From Sarcomyxa edulis (taxonomy: Eukaryota > Basidiomycota > Agaricomycetes > Agaricales > Mycenaceae): 64,000 nucleotides of DNA. Each line of letters opens with the position of its first letter. Within the stretch, counting starts at the first letter, position 1. The notes beneath the pieces were generated by a model. The model was not told the DNA's origin. It saw only the letters and a list, made by a program, of their open reading frames with translations, and searched no databases. This document shows, piece by piece, positions 36,362-52,360 of this stretch. The stretch covers positions 2,480,001 to 2,544,000 of the forward strand of contig QUOL01000001.1 of assembly GCA_009761415.1 (NCBI GenBank), given 5' to 3'. Made by a program: the position numbers and the translations under genes.

Positions 36362-38130
<1,769 letters not shown>

Positions 38131-38184: not shown

Positions 38185-38194
38185 ACCGTCGATG
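38185..38194. repeat. Left copy of putative target-site duplication
   Basis: The 10-mer ACCGTCGATG occurs here and again at 51189-51198 in the same orientation. It directly abuts the putative left end TAGGCTCGT of the RecQ/DUF6589 element. The duplication could be 9 bp (CCGTCGATG) if the right-hand A belongs to the element. Confidence 0.6.
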
Positions 38195-38278
38195 TAGGCT
38201 CGTCCCCATCCGGCTTCGCACAAATACAACCCTTCCAAAAATAACACAGGCAAAGGAAAAAACACGGCAAGAGGCGAA

Positions 38279-38324
38279 GCCGGCTGGGCCCCCTCGTCGC
38301 TTTTTTGGCGGGACAGAAATTTCC
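38279..38324 (+). repeat. Left subterminal inverted repeat
   Basis: A 46-bp sequence starting GCCGGCTGGGCCCCCTCGTC and ending GGCGGGACAGAAATTTCC. Its reverse complement recurs at 51043-51088 with two differences. It starts about 84 bp inside the proposed left end. Confidence 0.85.
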
Positions 38325-38540
38325 CTGCCAACGAAGAGGCCACACTTCAACGAGAAAACACAAAAATTTGTCAAAAAAGTCCCTTAACTTAGTATATATA
38401 ATATGAATTTTCTTGAGCTGTGGACCAAATGAGACAAACTTTTTTTTCGGGCCTAGAAATTTTATAAGTCCTTGACATCGAGGGTCCGTGCAGATTGAGA
38501 GAGGAGAATGATACATATGGTAGCTAAAGGTAAAGTAGAG

Positions 38541-41037
38541 TCATCGGTAGTGAGCCTGGGGCCTATAATATGAACGAGAACCCGAGGCGGAAGGAATTTG
38601 GGGATCCACTGCAGTCAGTGGAGGCGCAGAAGTGGAAAAGGGGACAGAACCGTCGGGTGGATGGACTGGTGATGCTGCAGCAGTATGTGGGTGGTCAGAA
38701 ACATGGTTACGGTAGTGCGAGAATGTAGTCCTTGTAATCGGAGGTGGGGATGATGTGTTGTCATCGCGTTGTGGCATGGCGGAGGTGTTAGCAGTGGAAG
38801 AATGTGTTGTGCGAGTACGTTTAGCTGGACGGACTATATTCACGCCGTCATCCGCATCGGTGCGACGTCGTTTGGGTGCGGCACGTTTTTTGGTCGCTGG
38901 TAAAGAAGGAATTTCGAGGTTAATGATAAATTCGAAAAGTTCGTCGCCTAGTTTATCCCAGCGTTGCCAGCTGGATTGAATGAGTAGTGCAAGCTGCCCT
39001 TTTGTGCCTATAGGGCCTACTGATGATAGTAATTCGCAGATGTTATTATCGAGAATTGCATGTGGGGCCCACATAGCGGTGGGATAGTCACGACGCTTGA
39101 TGGAACGACGCCATGTATATAGAGCATCACGAACGGAGGGAACCGCTGGCACTTTCTTGGTGGCTTGTTGGCGTGAGACGGCAATGGGTTTACTAGGCCG
39201 TACGAGGTCGTAGAGGCGAGGGTTACATATATCGCAGCATTCGGAAGGAATCACATCTTTCGTGTAATTGGTCAATGAGATCTTTACACCCGAAAACAGA
39301 CGAAACTTACTGGATAGTTGATTGTGAAATATAGCCGCGAGAATTGATCGACGACAAATCGTTGCTTGGATGAAAGCGTATAGGCCTTCTCCGGGTGCAT
39401 CTTCTGAAGGTGTCGGATCGTCGAGACGCGCAACGACATCGTGTTCACCACAAAACATGCCTCGCTTCAGGCCATGAAGCACCGCATAGCCCAAATCTCC
39501 CTTAGCACCTTTACTAACTCGTACTTTCCCTTTTCCTCTGCCCCGGCCTCTCCCTCTTCTCGTTCCAGTACCCCGAGCCGAAGTAGTAACAGTCCGAGTG
39601 TTGTCAGTAACCTCTACAACACTCGGATTAGTTTCGAATGCTGAACGCTCCACTAGCATGATCGCGAGACCCGTGCGGCCATGACTGCGAGCGGCGCGGC
39701 CTGCACGTTGGACCCAGGAAGATAGAGTGCTGGGAGCTTTCCATTGTACGACCATATCGACATCAGGGATGTCACAACCCTACGACAACTTGTCAGTCAG
39801 ACACAGGAAGGAGAGAACAGTCACGTACCATTCCAGCGGCATCCGTACAAACAAGAATACGAATAGCACCTTGTTTGAACAATCGCATAGCCTCATTCCG
39901 ATAGCTAGTCGACATAGCAGCTGTATATGGTCGCACGAGACCTTGCGCACGGTAGCAGGATTTTACACGAGCATTCAAGTGGTCAGTCAGCTCCCCCCCA
40001 ACCTTGATATCGTCGACATATACAAATGCCTTCTTGAGATCTGCTGGTGTTTCCATATTCTCTGGGACGAGGAAGTCGGCATCACGGAATGTATTCATAG
40101 GATGTTCCATTGCGCGAACGACTTGAGAGACATTAGGCCGATCGTTTCCCTCGTTGATGAAGCGATAATTCTTTGCATCAAATTGGAGCTTGACAAGAAG
40201 GTCCCGATGAACCCGTGGTGTGAGAGTGGCAGTCACTGCAATGATGGGGACACTGCGTGGTAAGAACGCACGGATTGTGCCTAAGCTAGCATATTTTTTG
40301 CGGAAAGAATCGCCCCAGTGAGAAACGCAGTGAGCTTCGTCTATGAACACGGAGAGACATCGGGCACCAAATTCAGGCTTGCGCATCACCCCGTCTATGA
40401 ACCGGCGTGACAACAACATCTCGGGGGATATGAGGACAATTTGTGGTTTCCCCGCAACAACATCCTATAATGATTGTGAAAGCCATTAGATCTAGTCTGA
40501 GACTCGATCAACTTGGATGAGGTACGTACCGCCATAACATTCTTTGCACAACCACCATTTGAGCTATTGATTGCGATCGCTTTCAGTCCAAACTCATCCC
40601 GAAAAGTTGCAACCTTAGGAATCTAGTTGGTTAATGCACGATATATGTTTTACTAGTAGACTTACTTGTTCTTCTTGGAGCGCCATCAGTGGCGAGATGA
40701 TAAGTGTTACCTTGCCTTGACTCGATGGAAGAAGATGTGGGCCGGCCGCGATCCCAGTCTTGCCCGAACCGGTAGCTGCATGAAGGATGACGTCCTCGCG
40801 AAGTACCTGTGATGCCATGCATTGAAGCTGGAAGGGACGAGCACCATGTGCCCACGTAGTATAGTGACTTTTGATGAGTTCTGGAAGGCGGTCGAGTTCA
40901 CTTTGGATGGTTCGGCGCTGCTCCTCGGTAAACTTCGAAGATGAAGGTAGAGCCTTTCTAACCCTTCGATTTCTTTGCTTGTGGCGGGTACCCGTAGGAG
41001 TAGATCTAGGCTGGGGCCGAAGAGGAGGGGAAGGCAT
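38541..41037 (-). CDS. RecQ-like ATP-dependent DNA helicase of the mobile element
   Basis: The ATG at 41037 opens a basic N-terminus. Motifs in order are Walker A HAATGSGKTGIAAG (about residues 86-99), ISPLMALQEEQ, ISPEMLLSRRF, the RecQ-type box FIDEAHCVSHWGDSFRKKY, IAVTATLTPRVHRDL, ILVCTDAAGMGCDIPDVD and the motif VI version QRAGRAARSHGRTG. A RecQ zinc-binding-like cysteine set follows (PSECCDIC). The C-terminal part is basic and Ser-rich (KKRAAPKRRRTDADD). At least four introns are needed, including one of 54 nt in phase that removes the FRLFSGVK segment before VIPSECC. The helicase would unwind DNA 3'-5' by family analogy. It is transcribed away from the DUF6589 gene, and no disruption was seen. 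Its place inside inverted repeats suggests that it serves the element rather than the host. Confidence 0.85.
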
Positions 41038-41128
41038 GATCAGAAGAAAGGAGCTTCGAGATAGGAGCAGTCAAGTCTAAAAAATGTGGCAGTGTCGAAT
41101 CGCACTCCCCTCTTTCCTCGAGTCTCCC
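41038..41128. promoter_or_regulatory. Bidirectional promoter of the helicase/DUF6589 pair
   Basis: The two start codons (41037 on - and 41129 on +) are only 91 bp apart. An earlier in-frame ATG for DUF6589 at 41084 would leave 46 bp. No TATA box is obvious. Such tight divergence implies joint expression of the two proteins before the retrotransposon insertion. Confidence 0.5.
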
Positions 41129-41425
41129 ATGTCGAATCATATCCATGTACGGGGGAATACCATCCTTTCGTCCAGTGGCTTCTCTGAGAGTGATAGGGCA
41201 AACCTCAACAACAATCTCCCCCCTTCCAGCCCACCCTCACCGGCATCATCGGATATATATGTGGACGGCACTTCAGACGGCATCCCCCTCCTGGAGCTTC
41301 TGAAGCAAAGAGAAGAGGCCCTCAAAACCCCTGTAAAACGCCGGTTGGTTCGTTTACGTCCTCGGAGCTCGTCACTTCCCTATCCTGCACCTTTCATAGA
41401 CACGCCAACAGACTATGCCAGTGAT
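41129..41425 (+). pseudogene. DUF6589 gene, 5' fragment, cut by the retrotransposon
   Basis: The frame begins MSNHIHVRGNTILSSSGFS and encodes a Ser/Pro-rich, probably disordered N-terminus ending in DTPTDYASD at the insertion point. Translation then runs into the 3' LTR of the gypsy element and stops about 50 codons later. The reading frame is the one that resumes at 47577 (DIFFTPRTERKMKN), counting one copy of GTGAT, so this is the same gene as the 3' fragment. The 5' part carries no domain by itself. ATG 41129 was preferred; 41084 is also in frame. Confidence 0.75.
41421..41425. repeat. Target-site duplication GTGAT, left copy
   Basis: GTGAT precedes the LTR start TGTCAG here and follows the other LTR end CTGACA at 47577-47581. 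Five base pairs is the usual Ty3/gypsy duplication length. Confidence 0.9.
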
Positions 41426-41857
41426 TGTCAGGGCAACACCAATCTATACAAGACCAGCGGGCCACTGAAGCGTCACGAGCGAAAGGCGAGAACAGAGAAA
41501 GAGGAGGAGAGGAGATACAGAGGGAAAGAGAGAAGAGAGGGAAGCGATAGAGGATACTACAGGAGTTATATGACTTAGGTTCCCACTAGATTAGCGGTAA
41601 TCCTGAGAGATCGAACTGAGGATCCCCAGGGTGCATAGCGCCCTTTATATATCTACCTACATTACATGATTGGTAAGCTATAGAATCCTATGGAACATAA
41701 TGGAACACCATTAGTAAGATGATGATGCAACTCCGCAGCACCTTAGTAATTGCATCAGTCAGCAGCAGGAATAAAGGTATCCCAAGGAATAACTATAGCC
41801 CCCTGATAAGATAAGATAAGATCAAAGATAAAGTCCAAAATGAGTCGTTTCCTGACA
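41426..41857 (-). repeat. 3' LTR of the gypsy element
   Basis: 432 bp, bounded by TGTCAG and CTGACA. It appears identical to 47145-47576. On the - strand it contains a TATATAAAGG box about 33 nt before a TCAGTTCGATCT sequence, the likely promoter and transcript start in the matching 5' LTR. Confidence 0.93.
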
Positions 41858-41868
41858 TCACCCCCCTT
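41858..41868 (-). promoter_or_regulatory. Polypurine tract
   Basis: AAGGGGGGTGA on the - strand directly precedes the 3' LTR and directly follows the pol stop codon. It is the expected plus-strand DNA primer of the retroelement. Confidence 0.8.
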
Positions 41869-44800
41869 CTAGGTCGAATCGTCCTCGATATGACTACGAT
41901 TAAGTGGTATCGACCAAGTCGGGATGTGTTTTGTCCTTTCCTTCTCCAAGACCGAGATTGTGGCATCAGTGTAGGTTTCGAGAGGTCTAAACGGCAGTTG
42001 AGTGAAGAGTGCAGCGTTAATCCGTCGCGGTGCATTGGGGTGCAACTGATGGAACTGTCGAACCAGTCTTTTTGCACGATCAACGTTATCCTCCGGTTCC
42101 CAGGTGTTGTGTTCGTCGGTGTACCCCTTCCACTTGATCAAATAGTACAGCTTGCCTCGTTCCAACTTAGAGTTCAAGATTTCTTCAACTTCGTATTGGG
42201 GTTCACCTTCGACCTGGATTGGAGGGGGAGGATCGGATCTTTGGCCTTCGATCTGGGGTGGAACGTAGCGTCGCAGTTTGGAGACATTGAATACGGGGTG
42301 TAGCTTGTTGTAACGCTTTGGCAACTTGAGTTTATACGCGTTGGGCGACACAACTTTGGTGATTTCGAATGGTCCGTCCCGCTTGTGACTTAGCTTTTTG
42401 GAGGGGCGGTCTGTCTTGATGTCGCTCAAGTCAAGATACACCTTGTCTCCAACCTTGTACTGTGGGGTTTCGATCCGACCTTGATCTGCAAATCTCTTCA
42501 TCTCATCTGCCGCCTTATTTAGAGCCGCCTCTACTTCCTCATGGACCTTTTTCATGCGTAGTGCAAAGTCCTCAGCAGCTTCTGACTTGACATTTCTTTT
42601 CGGCTCGACCCCCATCCTTGGATGTCTTCCAGTATTGGCGTAGAAGGGGGAGACTTGAGTCGACGACGAAACTCGGTTGTTAAGCGCAAACTCGGCGATG
42701 GCTAGCCAATCAGCCCAATCATTTTGCCTATGATTGATGAACAAGCGAAGATATTGTTCAATTTCCTGGTTGGTTCTTTCCGTTTGTCCATCACTTTGAG
42801 GGTGGTAGGCTGTCGACAGTTTGCGTTTGACACCGAGTAGCGTGTGAAGGTCTTTCATGAGCTGCGAGGCAAATTGCGGTCCGCGGTCCGAGATGACTGA
42901 GTCCGGGAGACCGTGGTACCTCCAGACGTGATCTCTGTAAAGCGCGGCTAGTCCAAGGGACGACAATTCTTCGGAGCATGGGATGATGTGGGTCATTTTG
43001 GTGAATCTGTCAACGACCACGAGAATTGCATCGTTCCCTTGGCTATCTGGCAGTCCAGTGATCAAATCTACGGAGATATCTGTCCACGGCGCCGAAGGGG
43101 TGCGGTTAGGCATGAGCTTTCCTATTGGTGGGGCAGGGAATGTCTTTGTTCGATTACATTTGTCGCAACCTTCGATGTACTGGGTTACAAATTTAGTCAT
43201 TCCTGGCCACCAGTAGTTCCTGCTCATGAGCTCTAGGGTCTTCCACTTTCCAGGGTGTCCCATGACTGCAGAATCGTGATGTAATTCCACAATCTTTCGC
43301 CGTAGTTCTTCCTTCTTAGGGACGTAGACTTTTCCCCGGAATAGTATCAACCCTTGCTCTTCTGACCACTCTTCTTCTCTGAGACGTCTGACAGGGGAAT
43401 GTTTGAGTTCTTCAACAGCTTTGACCACCGACTCATCATAGTCTTTGCACTTTCTGATGTCTGATAAAATGCTAGACTCGTTGTTTTCGATCAAAACGTG
43501 GCCCTGTTGAAGCGCTCGGATTCGGAAAAACTCTGGTTTCAGAAGGATTTGATTCTGGTTATCCTCTTCCCCCTTGTCATGATCTGCTCGTCTCGAGAGA
43601 TAATCTGGTTTGGCCGATGCAGACCCTGGTCGGTGTTTCAGCACAAAATCAAATCGCGATAGGTAAAGTGCCCATCTCGCTTGTCGTCGATTCAAGTTCC
43701 GTGCTGTTTTGAAGTATTCCAGGTTCTTATGGTCGCTCCAGATTACCACCGGGTGGTCAGCCCCTTCGAGGTAGTGTCGCCATTCTTCCAAACATCGAAT
43801 GATGGCTAGCATTTCTTTATCGTGTATATCATAGTTGCGTTGCACATCATTCAATCCTTTGGAGAGATAGGCGCACGGTCTCCATTTACCATCATCACAG
43901 AGCATGCTTAGAATACCCCCAGTCGCATGACCTGAGGAGTCGGCCTCAATCTTCATCTGCTTTGTCGGGTCAGGATATACGAGGACAGGCTTGGAGGAGA
44001 ATCTTCTCTTTAACTCGTCGAATGCCTTTTGTTGTTCCTCCGTCCATTTCCATGGTGCATCCTTCCGGGTGAGCTGATGAAGGGGTTTTGCCACTTTAGA
44101 GAATCCCTCTATGAAGCGCCGGTAGAAGTTAGCAAAGCCGAGAAAGGCTTGCAGCTCCTTGACTTTTGTTGGTACCGGCCACTTCATGACTGCTTCGACT
44201 TTCTTGGGATCCATTCTAATGTGGTCACCCGAGATGATGAGACCGAGGTATTCCAGCTCTGTTTTCTCAAACTCGCATTTTTCGGGTTTAAGGAATAGAT
44301 CATTGTCTCGTAGGATTTCAAGAACTTGTTTGACTATTTTCCTGTGTTCTTCCAGTGTCTTGGTGAAGATCAGGATGTCGTCCATGTAAACAATGACTAC
44401 TCCTTTATCGATCAGCGGTTTGAGAATGTGGTTCATCATGGTCTGGAAGGAAGCCGGCGAATTCATCAGTCCAAAGAACATAACGGTTGGTTCGAACATC
44501 CCTCTGTTGGTTTTGAAGGCTGCTTTCCACTCATCCCCTTCCTTGATGCGCAAATTGTTGTATCCCCACCGTAGGTCTAATTTGGTGAAGATCTTTGCGT
44601 TTTTAAGTTTATCGACAAGTTCGGGGATCAGGGGTAGTGGGTAAGCGTTCTTGACTGTGTGGGAGTTCAGATGCCGATAGTCTTGAACCGGGCGATTCGT
44701 ACCGTCTTTCTTCTTCACGAAGAAGAAGGGAGCCGCTTGGGGAGACTTCGAGGGTCGGATATATCCTTTGCGTAGGTTCTCGTCGATGAATTTGTCGAGT

Positions 44801-45600
44801 TCCTTTTGTTCTTTTGGTGACAGAGGGTACAGTTTAGGGTTTTGAGGGATAAAGGTGTCTTTCAGATCTATGGGATGGTCCCAAGGTCGTCGTTCAGGGA
44901 GTCGTTCCGACGCCTTCTTTTCGAACAGTTCTAAGAACTCATGATACTGTTCGGGGACTATGGTTTCGGGTTTAGGTTTAGATTGAAAGACCCCTGCGTC
45001 ACCAGCAAAGAATATCCGTTCCGTTGGAATTTCTTCATACTCGTCGTCTTCTTTATGAGCCCAAGGATCATACCACGTGTGGTAGATGGCTTCTTCGTCT
45101 TCACCTTCTTCATCTTCGTTGACCATGGTGGGGAATGGGGTCTTAGCTTTGGCTTTTGCCTTGCGGCGTACCTTAGCGTCGTACCCACATTCTTTTGGAC
45201 ACCTAGTCATCTCCACTTCACCCTTTTCCCAGTCTATTTCCGGGTTGTGCTTCTTCAACCAGGAGTGTCCGATAATAACCGCCATCTTTCCAAGGTTGGT
45301 GATCGCAAAAGTAGCACGTTCCTTATGCCCCTTATAGTTCAGGATCATGTCTACTTCTTCTGTGATCGACCCTCCTTCGTTCAGGGTTCCATCTACATTG
45401 TATACTTGAATGGGTCTTTTCAGTCGTCGGGTTGCTAGCCCATTGCCTTTTGCAAATTCTTTATCCATAAACAATGTAGTGGCCCCTGAATCCAGCAACG
45501 CATCAATGTTGATCGCACGATGAGTGTCAAGAGTTCTAAGACCAACGTTCATAGAAACGTGTGTCTTAAGGTTGAGGGTTCTGACATAATGTTTTTCCAC
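41869..45600 (-). CDS. pol: Pol polyprotein of chromodomain gypsy element
   Basis: About 1,243 codons without a stop. A retropepsin motif LLDSGATTLF lies near residues 35-44. Reverse transcriptase has FFVKKKDGTNRPVQDYRHLN and the active site YMDDILIF near 403-410. RNase H carries KIEADSSGHATGG near 550. Integrase has the zinc finger HHDSAVMGHPGKW with CDKCNRTK near 770-815, and a DDE core with DISVDLITG, ISDRGPQF and GQTERTNQEIE near 840-940. A GPY/F-like part (KRDGPFEI) precedes a C-terminal chromodomain (YEVEEILNSK, LIKWKGYTDEHNTWEPEDNV) near 1130-1175. The first listed codon is GTG, and the frame stays open upstream across the gag stop in the -1 frame, so expression by frameshifting from gag is likely. 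Confidence 0.93.
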   Translation of the reverse strand: MEKHYVRTLNLKTHVSMNVGLRTLDTHRAINIDALLDSGATTLFMDKEFAKGNGLATRRLKRPIQVYNVDGTLNEGGSITEEVDMILNYKGHKERATFAITNLGKMAVIIGHSWLKKHNPEIDWEKGEVEMTRCPKECGYDAKVRRKAKAKAKTPFPTMVNEDEEGEDEEAIYHTWYDPWAHKEDDEYEEIPTERIFFAGDAGVFQSKPKPETIVPEQYHEFLELFEKKASERLPERRPWDHPIDLKDTFIPQNPKLYPLSPKEQKELDKFIDENLRKGYIRPSKSPQAAPFFFVKKKDGTNRPVQDYRHLNSHTVKNAYPLPLIPELVDKLKNAKIFTKLDLRWGYNNLRIKEGDEWKAAFKTNRGMFEPTVMFFGLMNSPASFQTMMNHILKPLIDKGVVIVYMDDILIFTKTLEEHRKIVKQVLEILRDNDLFLKPEKCEFEKTELEYLGLIISGDHIRMDPKKVEAVMKWPVPTKVKELQAFLGFANFYRRFIEGFSKVAKPLHQLTRKDAPWKWTEEQQKAFDELKRRFSSKPVLVYPDPTKQMKIEADSSGHATGGILSMLCDDGKWRPCAYLSKGLNDVQRNYDIHDKEMLAIIRCLEEWRHYLEGADHPVVIWSDHKNLEYFKTARNLNRRQARWALYLSRFDFVLKHRPGSASAKPDYLSRRADHDKGEEDNQNQILLKPEFFRIRALQQGHVLIENNESSILSDIRKCKDYDESVVKAVEELKHSPVRRLREEEWSEEQGLILFRGKVYVPKKEELRRKIVELHHDSAVMGHPGKWKTLELMSRNYWWPGMTKFVTQYIEGCDKCNRTKTFPAPPIGKLMPNRTPSAPWTDISVDLITGLPDSQGNDAILVVVDRFTKMTHIIPCSEELSSLGLAALYRDHVWRYHGLPDSVISDRGPQFASQLMKDLHTLLGVKRKLSTAYHPQSDGQTERTNQEIEQYLRLFINHRQNDWADWLAIAEFALNNRVSSSTQVSPFYANTGRHPRMGVEPKRNVKSEAAEDFALRMKKVHEEVEAALNKAADEMKRFADQGRIETPQYKVGDKVYLDLSDIKTDRPSKKLSHKRDGPFEITKVVSPNAYKLKLPKRYNKLHPVFNVSKLRRYVPPQIEGQRSDPPPPIQVEGEPQYEVEEILNSKLERGKLYYLIKWKGYTDEHNTWEPEDNVDRAKRLVRQFHQLHPNAPRRINAALFTQLPFRPLETYTDATISVLEKERTKHIPTWSIPLNRSHIEDDST

Positions 45601-45710
45601 AGGGGGTTTCGATTCGTGAGCGGGGGAAACAACTTTATTTTCTTCAAAATGTACATGTTTTTCTATTCTAGAATCGGAACCCTTGGTAGCGGCAACCGAG
45701 TTTGTGGAAG

Positions 45711-46700
45711 TTACTGATTGCCGTTTTGAAAACCCTCTTCCTTTCGGAAGTACTCTCTCAACTCGTCAAACGTCATGCTTCTGATGTCGGCATAGGTACA
45801 GTTACGAGCGATGTGTCCTAGCCGTTGGCAACGGAAGCATTTGATAGGTGGACGTTTGCCGGCGCGATCCACATCCATGGCGTCTGGGTCCCTTTGCCTT
45901 GGCGCATCGGGCTGACGTTGAGGTGGTACAACTGGGGCTGGAGGCGGAGCTACTGGTTTGTCTCGACGAGGTTGTGTCCTGGATGTGTCGTTCCAGACGT
46001 TCTTGGCTTTCTCGTTGTAGCGAATGCGTTGATTGTCCAGCTTTAGCACCCATTCGTACCAGCCAGCCAGGGTGTTTGGCATAGCAGGTAATGCGTAGAC
46101 GCGTTCTCGAAGCCGATGGTTTAGACCCGTTTCGAACTTTTCAATCAATGCTACCTCATTGTACCCAGTACGTGGGGCGATCGATGCAAAAGCCCGGACG
46201 TACTCGTCGGCGGTCTGGCTGCCCTGGAACAACTTGCTCATGTCAGTCTGAGCCGTATCTTGGGGATTGGGATCGGCAAAAGACTTTCTGAACTTTTGGA
46301 TAAAGTCATTCCAGCTGGTGAAGGGAGCCTGTCGCCGGAGAGAGGTCATAGGATCTATTGTTCCAACCTGACTGATAGCCGTTAACGCCAAATCCACAAA
46401 GGTTTGTGCGGTTCCCCCCTGGATGTATGAGAGCGCAAACGAGATTTTGGTATCATCGTTTGGGAACTCAATGGCTCGACCGTTCATATAGTTGATGTTT
46501 TCGTTGATGAACGCATCGGCCTGGGCTTTGTCTCCAGAGAAAATACGAGGGGGATTGATTTTAGGAAGTCGGGGATGAGGGGCAGGAAGCGGTTGCGGCA
46601 TGGGTTGTGGCTGGGGTTGGGCAAGCTGTTGGTTCAGCAGGTTGGTGAGGGCGGCGATTTGGGTTTCGAGTTGCGTAATGCGGTCATCAGGGTCCTCCAT
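45711..46700 (-). CDS. gag: Gag protein of the gypsy element
   Basis: A 329-codon frame beginning MEDPDDRITQLETQIAALTN, a short coiled-coil-like start followed by a Gln/Pro-rich linker. A retrotransposon gag core follows (KINPPRIFSGDKAQADAFIN, FTSWNDFIQKFRKSFADPN, SQTADEYVRAFASIAPRTGY). The end carries a CCHC zinc knuckle, CFRCQRLGHIARNC, near residues 288-302, which binds the genomic RNA. The stop lies about 110 nt before the listed pol start. Pol is in the -1 frame relative to gag. Confidence 0.9.
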   Translation of the reverse strand: MEDPDDRITQLETQIAALTNLLNQQLAQPQPQPMPQPLPAPHPRLPKINPPRIFSGDKAQADAFINENINYMNGRAIEFPNDDTKISFALSYIQGGTAQTFVDLALTAISQVGTIDPMTSLRRQAPFTSWNDFIQKFRKSFADPNPQDTAQTDMSKLFQGSQTADEYVRAFASIAPRTGYNEVALIEKFETGLNHRLRERVYALPAMPNTLAGWYEWVLKLDNQRIRYNEKAKNVWNDTSRTQPRRDKPVAPPPAPVVPPQRQPDAPRQRDPDAMDVDRAGKRPPIKCFRCQRLGHIARNCTYADIRSMTFDELREYFRKEEGFQNGNQ

Positions 46701-47130
46701 GGTAGTAGCAAGAGGAGATGCGAGGTGGGAAGGAGTTATGGAAAGATGGGGAGGTTACTACAGACACGATCGAATGCGTGATACTAAACAGGTCCCCGTT
46801 GGTTAGACGGATCAACCCAACCGGATAGTATGCACGAGCGAAAACAATATGAGTGTAGCGCGGTATGCGTAAGGCGAGGTGCCGTTAGCTTGTGTTCTGT
46901 TGCTACTCAGACAATATCCTTCTTCTCTTCCAAAAGGACTATTGCGCGGTTAAGCCTTGGCGACTACTGCAGATCTGAAGTCGGGCTCAACGTTACTTCA
47001 GATTATGCTTGTCAGCTGAGTTGAGTGGAACACAAGTTCTTGATGGCGAGGTAAAAGGTAGTTAGTAATGTGAATGGAAAGAGGGAATGGAGGGGCGCAG
47101 CGTGTATTTCAGGATTAGGGCGTCGTAGGG

Positions 47131-47142
47131 TCAGTTCGATCT
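47131..47142 (-). promoter_or_regulatory. Self-priming primer binding site
   Basis: On the - strand, AGATCGAACTGA lies two bases inside the 5' LTR. It is perfectly complementary over 12 nt to TCAGTTCGATCT within the LTR, about 33 nt downstream of the TATATAAAGG box. This is the arrangement of Tf1/sushi elements, in which the 5' end of the transcript folds back to prime reverse transcription. No tRNA-type TGG start is present at this position. Confidence 0.75.
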
Positions 47143-47144
47143 TC

Positions 47145-47576
47145 TGTCAGGGCAACACCAATCTATACAAGACCAGCGGGCCACTGAAGCGTCACGAGCG
47201 AAAGGCGAGAACAGAGAAAGAGGAGGAGAGGAGATACAGAGGGAAAGAGAGAAGAGAGGGAAGCGATAGAGGATACTACAGGAGTTATATGACTTAGGTT
47301 CCCACTAGATTAGCGGTAATCCTGAGAGATCGAACTGAGGATCCCCAGGGTGCATAGCGCCCTTTATATATCTACCTACATTACATGATTGGTAAGCTAT
47401 AGAATCCTATGGAACATAATGGAACACCATTAGTAAGATGATGATGCAACTCCGCAGCACCTTAGTAATTGCATCAGTCAGCAGCAGGAATAAAGGTATC
47501 CCAAGGAATAACTATAGCCCCCTGATAAGATAAGATAAGATCAAAGATAAAGTCCAAAATGAGTCGTTTCCTGACA
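47145..47576 (-). repeat. 5' LTR of the gypsy element
   Basis: 432 bp with TGTCAG and CTGACA termini. It appears identical to the 3' LTR. The transcript is predicted to start at the TCAGTTCG sequence (- strand; about 47338 in window coordinates), downstream of the TATATAAAGG box. Confidence 0.93.
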
Positions 47577-47581
47577 GTGAT
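47577..47581. repeat. Target-site duplication GTGAT, right copy
   Basis: GTGAT directly follows the LTR end CTGACA and matches 41421-41425. Confidence 0.9.
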
Positions 47582-50500
47582 GATATCTTCTTCACTCCCA
47601 GAACTGAACGCAAGATGAAAAATACAGAAATACAGAAGAAGCGACAGGAAACCATTGCGCAGAAGTCCGGAGATGGTCGAGAGGCTGCGAGAAAAAGAAA
47701 GGAATTAGAAGCAGCAAAAGCTAAAGTGACGAGGGACCTATACTTCGACAGGATGTTGGATGAGATGCATGAGCGAGGTTATTCGTTGGCAGAGCTGTTG
47801 GATTATGTCTTCAATCCCTCAACAAAATTCGCCTTTGACTGGCGTTGGAAAGGGTTTTTCGCATACAAGACAACTGTCGAGAGAATATTCAATTACTGGA
47901 CAACATCGAAATATGCAAAATCAGTACGTACGCTTGTTCGAGACTGGTCGCTAGTGCAGGTCAAGAGAGAAGTCGGAAAGGAATCTAGACGTATCACTCG
48001 GTCAGGAATCCTGAGTCGCACAAACAAGATTGTGAATGAAGACTTCTTCCTGCAATACAGCCTGGCACGACTTACCGACAGCTTGAGAGCACTGGCCCCC
48101 AGTATATTTGGTGTTCTCGATGCATTTTCTACCACCTCCCGACAAGTCAGAGAGATGTCGCCGGAATGGTTCTACAAAAAGCGCCTGGTGAGCTATGGCA
48201 TTCTATCTTCTCGGGCAACAATGAATCTCATACCTTCGACAGCTAGGCGGCTCTGCTGCATTAGGTCTACTCAGAGGAGCTAGTCAGAATAACAGCTATC
48301 CCGCTGCAGTGAACAGCACCTACTTCATGGCAACAGGTGCTCAGAGACAACATCTAAGTGTTCTTGGATCTTACGGAGTGACGATGGGCTATTCAAGTGT
48401 AATCACACAAGGGGTTGAGGCAAAATTGGTATTGAGTGGAGACGATGAAGTGGAAGTGGAAGTTGATGGTATAGACATCGATGTGGAAAAGGAGACTAGC
48501 CCAGGTGGTCCGAATCAGCCTTCGATAATCAACAAACCAAAAAAGAACCGTATACGCACTCCTGGGACCTTGTTCCAGCTATCGCAGTCATGTCGTACAA
48601 CAGCACGTACTATCGCGGAAACGGCTCTCTTTTCCACTGTGTACGACAACATAAACATGATGGTAAGAGTTGCAGAGCAAATTCTAGGACGGAAAAGTAA
48701 GCCTAGTATTCCTCTATGATTCAGGGTAGCAGTCTCACCAATCGTAATGCAGACGCACAGGAAAATGGGACGTGTGCAACAGTGATTCCTCTGTACAATT
48801 CAAAACTTGAAGACCTCCTCACGACAAATCTGGAAGAGGGTATCAGGAATGCCCCACCGTTGACACTCGAAAACCTCCAACTCACCGATACCGAGTCCGA
48901 ATTCATGGCAGCATCAATGGTCCACACGGTCCTTCGTATAATTGTGCTTCAAGGAGGTGAAGGATTCCTACGGTGGAAGAAAGACCTAGATGAATGTGAA
49001 CCCTCGAGCTCGGAAAGAATTGAAGTGCACAAATCGTCGATACACCCTCTACCATCAATGGAGATCGACGAAAACTCGACAACTGGGAATATCGAGGTCA
49101 TCGAGGCAATCGACAAAGAGCTTGGCCTAAGCCAAGATAATCCCACTTATACACGATATGTGAAGATCATTGCTGGCGACCAATTGACAATAGCACGTCA
49201 GAGGTCCATCTTGAATGTACGTTTAGGCCACGAAGATGGTGCTAATGCTTGGAAACATGTCGTACTCATGCCTGGCCTCTTCCACGCTAAGATCGCTGAC
49301 TGCCATGGGTTGTTGGAGACTCACTTTGGTCGACCGAATTCCGGAATTCGAAATCCAGGCAGCCTTGCTTTCCACAACACCTGTCTTGATCGGATTCCTA
49401 TTGTCCTCAGCTCCCTTCCACCATTTCGCACTTGCCGGGATTTGATCTTGGTCTCCCTATACGGGCGTGTACTTCACCTCCTCTGTCATATTTCCGGCTA
49501 TGATTCGCTCGAGGAATATCTCTTGAATGTCGAAGAGTGGGCCACCGTCGAGAAACACGCTCAACAGATTGTTTCGGAGTACGCAAATGCTGACAAAGTA
49601 CAAGAACTGCGAGAGTTACGAGTTCCTGAAGAGCGCGAGCGAGAGGCGACAAAAGCGGCTGCAAAGAAGAACAAATTGCCAGCACCTGAGCCTCCCACGG
49701 AACACGTCAAGGAAGGAGATATGGTGTACGAGAATGGAAACTTGTTTCTACGCGATGCACTGGTGACACGCATGTTCTCTGATGCTGTGAAAGCTGGGGA
49801 TTCCGGCAAGGTTGTCTTGATTCTGAAGCTCTGGTCATTCTCGTATCGTGGTAGTGGCCGCAGCAAGTATGCTCACGAAATGTTGCATCTCCTCCACAAC
49901 TTGATCAATGTCTGGTCTACCGACTTACGGTGCGTCTCAACCTTGGTGATCTGGCTTGTTTCGATTCATTTTGTAACTAACTCTTTTCGACATGAACAGG
50001 AGAGTGATCACTCAAAATTGGTTGCTAAATCCAACAGGCAAAGCGAATGCGTTCGTTGAAATAGACTTAGTCCAGGAGCATCTCAATTTTTGGATCAAGG
50101 TATGCATTCTTTGTTGTCTGTCTCATCATGTTTCCGACATCCCTTCTATCGAGGAGAAAATCTACAAGGCAGACGGAGATGGTCATTCATGGGACTGGCT
50201 TGCTCTCGTTTCTCCATGTGTCGATGTTTTGCGGAGGCTCGCAGCTCAAATCAACACAGACTTAGGTGCCCAGCAAGGTACGAAACATAGCATTCCGGAC
50301 TTGAGCAAAGACATTGCCACCATCATGGCCAGTCTCAAGGAACACGAAGTCTATACTATCAAGAACGGCCGAGTATTTGACATCGAAGAGGCTCCCGCTA
50401 CCGATATCATGTCAGCGGGCCTTGCTGCGTTGTCCCACGGATCTTCAAGCACACCGCTCTCCGAGTTCAACCATCAATTTGACCGTCTACGTGAGCGGCG

Positions 50501-50864
50501 TGACCTCGTTCCATTATCCTTTCTTCGTGACCTATCACTGGCAGCCCAACCCCTCCCAGAGCCCGAACTCACATTGCCTCAGCCTGCGGATAGCGATCAG
50601 TCCATGGATACCGACTCGGATAGTGAGATTGATGAAACCGAGCTCCCAGATCTGATGGTACTACCTGACTCCAGTGATGAAGAAGATGGTGATGACGAGT
50701 ACGACGAAGACTTGTTTTCAGCATCACCAACGCTTACACGAGATGATGCTGGAGATACGGCACTGGATATGGACGTAAGGGAGTGGTATTTGGATGATGA
50801 GGATGCCGAGAGAGGTGATGGGTTTGTTTCGGATGACTCAAACAGCTCGGACGGAGAGGACTAG
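47577..50864 (+). pseudogene. DUF6589 gene, 3' fragment carrying the conserved domain
   Basis: The frame resumes after the retrotransposon and runs through four introns (48187-48242, 48697-48752, 49930-49999, and 50100 to about 50153) to the TAG at 50864. DUF6589 hallmarks are visible: FDWRWKGFFAYKTTVERIFN, LGGSAALGLLRGASQ, YFMATGAQRQHLSVLGSYG, YDNIN, AQENGTCATVIPLYN, GDQLTIARQRS, LMPGLFHAKIADCHGLLETH, SLAFHNTCLDRIPIVLSSLP, FRTCRDLILVSLYGRV and SKYAHEMLHLLHNL. The C-terminus is very acidic (SDEEDGDDEYDEDLFSA). DUF6589 is widespread in Agaricomycetes, with no assigned activity that I know of. Apart from the insertion I see no frameshift or premature stop, so the gene was intact until recently. 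An internal ATG at 47614 could give an N-truncated product containing the whole domain. Confidence 0.8.
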
Positions 50865-51042
50865 CATATAACGCACGGACCGCTCGACGTCGGGGACTTG
50901 TATTAATTTTTTTGACCTCGAAAGAAAGTCTATCTTATTTTGTGCAGAGCTAAATAAAATCCAGATTATATGCACTGACTTAGAGATGAATTTTCCAAGA
51001 AATCGAAGCTTTTTTGTCGAAGTGCGACTGCTTCAATGGTGA

Positions 51043-51088
51043 GGAAATTTCTGTCCCGCCAAAAAGGCGACGAGGGGGCCCAGTCGGC
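51043..51088 (-). repeat. Right subterminal inverted repeat
   Basis: The reverse complement of 38279-38324 with two mismatches in 46 bp. It begins GGAAATTTCTGTCCCGCC on the + strand. It lies about 100 bp inside the proposed right end and about 180 bp after the DUF6589 stop. Confidence 0.85.
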
Positions 51089-51188
51089 TCGCAAGCTCGC
51101 CCCCGGTTCTTGTTGTCTTTGTTTGGTGCGATCAAAAAATGTCCGCATTTGGACGGAGAACTTGCGAGTCTGACTGGTTCACGAGTCT

Positions 51189-51198
51189 ACCGTCGATG
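51189..51198. repeat. Right copy of putative target-site duplication
   Basis: ACCGTCGATG directly follows the right terminus (ACGAGTCT on the + strand) and repeats 38185-38194. Confidence 0.6.
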
Positions 51199-51310: not shown

Positions 51311-52360
51311 ATGTCTTCTCCGCCCGAGTCTCCGCCCGAGTTTCTTTCGTCTGTTCTTGCGAATTTAAACAACACATCTGCCACCCAGTCAAGGCCTAAC
51401 GTGACTCTGACTTTTGCTCAATCACTAGATGCTAAAATTGCAGGAAAAGATGGAGAACAGCTCATTCTTAGTGGGAAAGAAAGCATGATCATGACACACT
51501 GGTGAGTATCGATATACGGCCAGTGGTAAAGGTCTGATATACCAAGAGTAGGATGAGAACTATGCATGATGCTATTCTTGTTGGAATCGGTACCGCCTTG
51601 AATGATGATCCTCAGCTCAACAGTGCGTAGCTTATCACGCGACGGTGGTTTGTATCACGGAAGTCATTGCACAGCGCGACACCTCCCTCCCAGACCCGAA
51701 GGTGTACCCAATGCGGAACACAGCAACCCGTATCATCTTCCTCGACCAGTGATCATTGACTCAGCGTTGCAGTTCTCGCCTGATGCTAAACTACTGAAGA
51801 ACTATCGGGAAGGACGAGGACGACGGCCTTGGATTATCTGTTCCAATTCTAGCTCGGCTGCACATGGCGGACCAGCATATTCCGCGTGGTCTTTCCGTCT
51901 GCGCACCCTAGAAGATTTGGGCGCACGAGTGATTCAAGTTCCAGCCATCAATGGTACGAATCGGAGTATCATGTTCGAGACATTATTCTGATTCCTCTCA
52001 AGGTCGGATACCTGTCCCAACAATTCTTACGACCCTCCACGAACTAGGCATTCGGTCCCTCATGGTAGAAGGTGGCGCAAGAGTGATCGAATCCTTCTTT
52101 ACCGAGGACGCCTCTTCATCACCCGAGAGACGAATCATAGATACCATTATCCTGACCGTTGCTCCGATATTTGTTGGAGAAGATGGGGTCGGATATGCTA
52201 TCAAATTCGGAGATGAGGTATGTAGTCGAGATTCTCTTCCACCGGTTGGAAGATACCAATATCTGGATAGAACAACTCGTTCAGCTATTTGTCAACGGAG
52301 ATGGCAGGCAAGGATACAGTGGTCGCGCTGAAAGCTGCAAAAGTAATTATACCTGCATAG
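51311..52360 (+). CDS. RIB7: 2,5-diamino-6-ribosylamino-pyrimidinone 5'-phosphate reductase (riboflavin synthesis)
   Basis: Rib7 performs the NAD(P)H-dependent side-chain reduction in fungal riboflavin synthesis. The ATG at 51311 starts MSSPPESPPEF. The reductase motifs follow: RPNVTLTFAQSLDAKIAG, LILSGKESMIMTHW (intron), MRTMHDAILVGIGTALNDDPQLN (intron), RPEGVPNAEHSNPYHLPRPVI, and the late segment LGIRSLMVEGGARVIESFF with VAPIFVGEDGVGY. The last exon ends STEMAGKDTVVALKAAK and stops at 52360. At least four introns are present; the limits of the last one (about 52219-52290) are the least certain. The start codon lies about 112 bp from the right end of the mobile element, so its original promoter was probably shared with MetAP2. 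Confidence 0.9.

Follow-up and report, generated by a model that had tools for sequence, protein, structure and literature searches.

In a 64,000-nt stretch of the Sarcomyxa edulis genome (C1:2480001-2544000 of a 35.6-Mb assembly in 40 contigs; hereafter the window, whose own positions are used for features within it), the block from 38195 to 51189 is one mobile unit, sister copies of which have moved recently in this genome. The unit is characterized by two genes, one for a RecQ-type helicase and one for a protein with the DUF6589 domain (PF20231). We consider it quite probable that it is a cut-and-paste DNA transposon in which the DUF6589 protein is the transposase and the RecQ helicase a regular partner, most likely a member of the AcademH lineage.

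The unit is delimited as follows:

38195-51189, no strand: whole transposon including a nested Gypsy element, 12,995 bp, from the paired-end scan
38195-38203, plus strand: left terminal inverted repeat (TIR), TAGGCTCGT, followed by CCCCATCCGGCTTCG, which is like that of other copies
51181-51189, minus strand: right TIR, TAGACTCGT (the reverse complement of 51181-51189)
38186-38194, no strand: left target site duplication, 9 bp, CCGTCGATG
51190-51198, no strand: right target site duplication, 9 bp, CCGTCGATG
38279-38324, plus strand: left subterminal inverted repeat, 44 of 46 bases matching
51043-51088, minus strand: right subterminal inverted repeat, 44 of 46 bases matching

The inverted ends and the 46-bp subterminal repeats are as the original prediction had described them: TAGGCTCGT and TAGACTCGT match at eight of nine bases, and the subterminal repeats lie within 80-bp arms that are 83% matching. 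The direct repeat, originally given as 9-10 bp, is best read as the 9-bp CCGTCGATG, the length shown by other copies. A 10-bp reading, ACCGTCGATG, is possible since the right end finishes with an A, and it takes in this terminal base of the element.

Effects of chance were estimated by counting, in 50 Markov shuffles of the window, 9-bp repeats standing beside 9-bp ends with at most one mismatch and 0.5-20 kb apart. Each 64-kb shuffle yielded 0-2 such pairs, against 2 in the real window. A 9-bp repeat beside 9-bp ends is not rare on its own in 64 kb, and this much would be compatible with two host genes lying by accident between chance repeats. Likewise, TAGNCTCGT is not enriched genome-wide (1,022 matches against 1,248 for the reversed pattern), and its use alone as a genome-wide marker was dropped. 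The evidence beyond chance lies in the long subterminal repeat and in the fact that extended ends with duplications recur elsewhere in the genome. The extended pattern AGNCTCST(0-2)CCCATCC has 24 matches in the genome against a single one for its reversed form; 18 of these are ends of paired elements, one lies inside such an element, one at the DUF6589 locus of C6, one is unpaired (C5:540066) and three are chance-like.

A scan for paired ends was carried out on 30 stretches (194,141 bases) picked for a DUF6589, RecQ or end match, and returned ten pairs with 9-bp duplications and one with an 8-bp duplication. Two further elements came from stretches joined later or were read from flanks. No pair with 9-bp duplications was found in 750,705 bases of Markov control, which covers the 9-bp case and not the 8-bp one. 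Three candidates from a looser scan (8-10 bp, up to three end mismatches), at C10:391292, C37:1436037 and C37:1445561, were judged to be chance. Altogether, 13 elements combine related paired ends with exact duplications, which are 9 bp long in 12 elements and 8 bp in one; the two ends of an element can show as many as two mismatches in nine bases. The scan demands an exact duplication, and elements whose duplications have decayed would go undetected.

Elements with DUF6589 and RecQ:
window, duplication CCGTCGATG
C1:2874755-2880422, duplication TCTATATGC
C11:621470-628048, duplication GGAAGGACA
C13:40213-46464, duplication CGTGACCGG
C17:250574-269080, duplication ATCAGATAT
C19:154649-160597, duplication CGCTCAAT (8 bp)
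Elements without DUF6589 or RecQ matches:
C13:231153-232265, duplication GCTCATCGT
C17:242796-243971, duplication CGCCGTGCG
C37:102570-103988, duplication CTGGACACC
C37:1436988-1444813, duplication AATCACTGG
C38:1653285-1655199, duplication GCACCTAGT
C39:1312642-1313755, duplication GACGCTTTG
C40:579943-581012, duplication TATAATACT

The C13 and C17 copies of the first group are identical over 6,252 bp, except for one nested insertion in C17. Their flanks differ, as do their 9-bp duplications, and the left flank of the C13 copy finds in the assembly only itself and four weak partial matches. Since the two copies are identical yet stand at unrelated sites with different duplications, they point to recent transposition rather than segmental duplication. 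Identical copies at different sites, and the same ends and duplications around the same gene pair at six loci, make the accidental arrangement of host genes between chance repeats exceedingly improbable; that the block is one mobile unit, as originally proposed, is borne out by the same data.

Several elements have further peculiarities. The insertion in the C17 copy (C17:253227-265478) is about 12.3 kb long and has a 5-bp duplication. The element at C37:1436988-1444813 (L059, L067, L060) is a 1.4-kb non-autonomous copy into which an element of about 6.4 kb is nested; the latter has reverse-transcriptase-like and tyrosine-recombinase-like open reading frames (ORFs), of DIRS/Ngaro type by eye. 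In the non-autonomous element that begins at C17:242796, the end is repeated in inverted orientation 150 bp further in (C17:242796-242946; L052), accompanied by 13 bp of mirrored flank, an arrangement that looks like two fused ends.

Searching the genome with the PF20231 profile gave 21 pieces, which were grouped into nine DUF6589 loci; only the best candidates were scored, and nine is a lower bound. Six of the nine lie in paired-end elements, each of which also contains RecQ, and the pair can be taken as the gene content of the unit. A RecQ match lies within 14 kb of seven of the nine loci. The C10 locus has one 27 kb away, and at C6 there is none on the contig. There are 14 RecQ matches in the genome; random placement would bring one within 15 kb of about 1% of loci. 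The ends of the C5, C6 (left) and C10 loci were not found in the DNA read there. Gene order is variable: of the seven close pairs, that of the window alone is divergent, and the six others, which include the five further complete copies, are convergent. A fixed head-to-head order was consequently dropped as a defining trait.

The C6 locus (C6:528601-536939; L041, L006, L003) holds the closest relative of the window DUF6589 in its own genome (72% over 395 amino acids); a Copia-like ORF, identified by eye, adjoins its N-terminus, and one end is recognisable. RecQ matches with stop codons, possibly relics, are present at C8:699891-700505 (L031) and C4:294893-295444 (L032), on contigs without a DUF6589 locus.

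Three features make up the interior of the window copy, where only two genes had been reported:

38541-41037, minus strand: RecQ-type helicase gene in three open stretches, with DEAD and Helicase_C domains
41084-50864, plus strand: DUF6589 (PF20231) gene, proposed DDE transposase, interrupted by the Gypsy element
41426-47576, minus strand: nested Ty3/Gypsy element with chromodomain, 6,151 bp

The open stretches of the helicase gene are 40615-41070, 39793-40464 and 38541-39779. Both PF00270 and PF00271 score above cut-off, and solved structures matching the middle stretch include WRN, RecQ, BLM and RECQ5 (E down to 1.9e-15). PF20231 matches at 48707-50059 (E 3.9e-100) and 49977-50864 (E 1.4e-25). 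The Ty3/Gypsy element, which has matches to gag, protease, reverse transcriptase, RNase H, integrase and chromodomain, interrupts the DUF6589 gene. Its insertion is recent: the 432-bp long terminal repeats (41426-41857 and 47145-47576) are identical, and GTGAT is duplicated at 41421-41425 and 47577-47581. Roughly half of the 13 kb therefore consists of unrelated DNA that was inserted later. The stretch right after Gypsy matches DUF6589 relatives from about residue 100 on (E down to 1.9e-32), and the 114-residue plus-strand frame before it is collinear with the N-termini of two full-length relatives (E 0.011 and 0.057), which weakly suggests that the DUF6589 gene begins with the frame at 41084. 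The first methionines are at 41037 for RecQ (minus strand) and at 41084 or 41129 for the plus-strand frame; on this reading of the gene start, the spacer of under 100 bp reported originally holds, at 46-91 bp.

The DUF6589 protein, rather than RecQ, is probably the transposase of the unit. For AlphaFold models of two DUF6589 clades, relatives of the window protein, the best structural alignments are with Hermes, P-element and RAG-type enzymes, and DUF6589 is for this reason probably a DDE transposase. The D-D-E columns are kept in 103 of 103 rows of one aligned set (P0121-P0223). This match is qualified by the C13-type clade (P0224-P0343 and L008, C13:40826-44791), where His or Gln takes the place of the conserved Glu in 95 of the 109 rows that have a letter there. 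Both aligned sets share an invariant Asp in GDxGR. Judging from sequence and predicted fold, the unit would thus combine a DDD/E transposase with TIRs. It is conceivable, if doubtful, that DUF6589 proteins constitute a distinct transposase superfamily that is paired with RecQ throughout the mushroom fungi, and that in one mobile clade the third catalytic acid has been replaced by His or moved to the GDxGR Asp.

The best named relatives of the protein are from Mycena, Hypsizygus, Favolaschia and similar fungi. One search returned 728 matches; among the 120 listed, none has a second Pfam domain that would indicate a fusion to a helicase, in a search whose length limit excludes long proteins. The sequence profile found no match in PDB at E up to 1. 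Among viral contigs, 17 stretches fit the peptide patterns and none is a relative; of the 23 matches that a viral fold library gave when E was allowed up to 10, not one was at 0.001 or below.

The unit was compared with several groups of known transposons. The predicted DUF6589 fold resembles hAT (Hermes) and the P element; hAT transposases have an RNase H core with a helical insertion, as the DUF6589 models appear to have. Duplications are 8 bp in hAT and 7-8 bp for the P element, and neither is known to carry RecQ; only one of the 13 duplications found here is of 8 bp. The 9-bp duplications fall within the 8-11 bp of Mutator-like elements (MULEs), and no MULE Pfam match was obtained at E 0.01 in the ORFs scanned. 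Helitrons, which are not known to have inverted ends or duplications, were dropped. The AcademH lineage of Academ DNA transposons reportedly goes back to Kojima in 2020.

The original prediction knew of no named superfamily with this gene pair, and helicase-bearing types have in fact been described. AcademH has duplications of 9 or 10 bp and AcademX of 3 or 4, lengths linked to helicase versus nuclease (PMC10045372). AcademH elements are of low copy number in Basidiomycota, Ascomycota and Mucoromycota, and DEAD and Helicase_C are among the domains deriving from AcademH, KolobokH or Helitron (PMC10799480). Academ ranks with the superfamilies whose transposase is of the DDD/E type (PMC9587614), and putative Academ elements are present in Marasmius oreades (PMC8290104). 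As in these accounts, the unit encodes a helicase, has 9-bp duplications in 12 of 13 elements, and occurs at low copy number in a member of the Basidiomycota. In the unit the helicase has a gene of its own, encoded on the strand opposite to DUF6589, and two gene orders occur, which may set it apart from AcademH, known here by description only. Membership in the AcademH lineage is most likely, an assignment that draws on published descriptions. KolobokH, reported only from fungi, resembles the unit in its RecQ helicase and DDD/E transposase; the duplications of Kolobok are TTAA (PMC9587614). None of the 13 duplications is TTAA, which excludes KolobokH, and RecQ and DUF6589 matches are on opposite strands in seven of seven close pairs; we thus rate a KolobokH origin as very unlikely. 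A further reading, that DUF6589 and RecQ define a separate unnamed superfamily resembling AcademH only in its helicase and 9-bp duplications, appears unlikely. It would agree with the finding that no paper of the literature library searched names DUF6589, and it is countered by the coincidence of helicase, 9-10-bp duplication and Basidiomycota with the AcademH description (PMC10045372, PMC10799480). The literature searched also contained no paper joining RecQ, transposons, Agaricomycetes and terminal inverted repeats. The notion of an undescribed family is borne out only in part, the AcademH description being the best fit; the novelty seems to lie in reading DUF6589 as a probable transposase.

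In the favoured reading, DUF6589 would be a transposase of the DDE type whose RNase H fold contains a large helical insertion, as in the hAT, P-element and RAG-type enzymes. It would pair both ends (YAGNCTCST... and the subterminal repeats), excise the unit and insert it by 9-bp staggered cuts. RecQ, as a regular part of the unit, would probably serve to open or resolve DNA at the ends or at gaps, either while transposition proceeds or afterwards, a role suggested by its constant association. The shorter elements with the same ends and without these genes were probably moved in trans. The window copy would have inserted into the roughly 176 bp that separated MetAP2 from RIB7, and the later Gypsy insertion probably inactivated the transposase gene of this copy.

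The left neighbour matches methionine aminopeptidase 2 (MetAP2) and Peptidase_M24, its frame having its first methionine at 38130 (minus strand); the right neighbour, whose frame starts at 51311 (plus strand), carries RibD_C and is presumably RIB7, the name it bore in the original prediction. The distance between them, less the element and one duplication, is 176 bp. The element stands in this former gap between divergent frames and may for this reason affect both promoters. An empty allele was not seen, both flanks of the window copy being single-copy in the assembly.

DUF6589 is a label without function on hundreds of fungal proteins, and a transposase role, if true, would cover them. Some mushroom RecQ-like helicases would then be transposon cargo and not host repair genes. 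With its paired ends, its recently moved identical copies and its non-autonomous relatives, the unit provides material for testing the role of the helicase in transposition.
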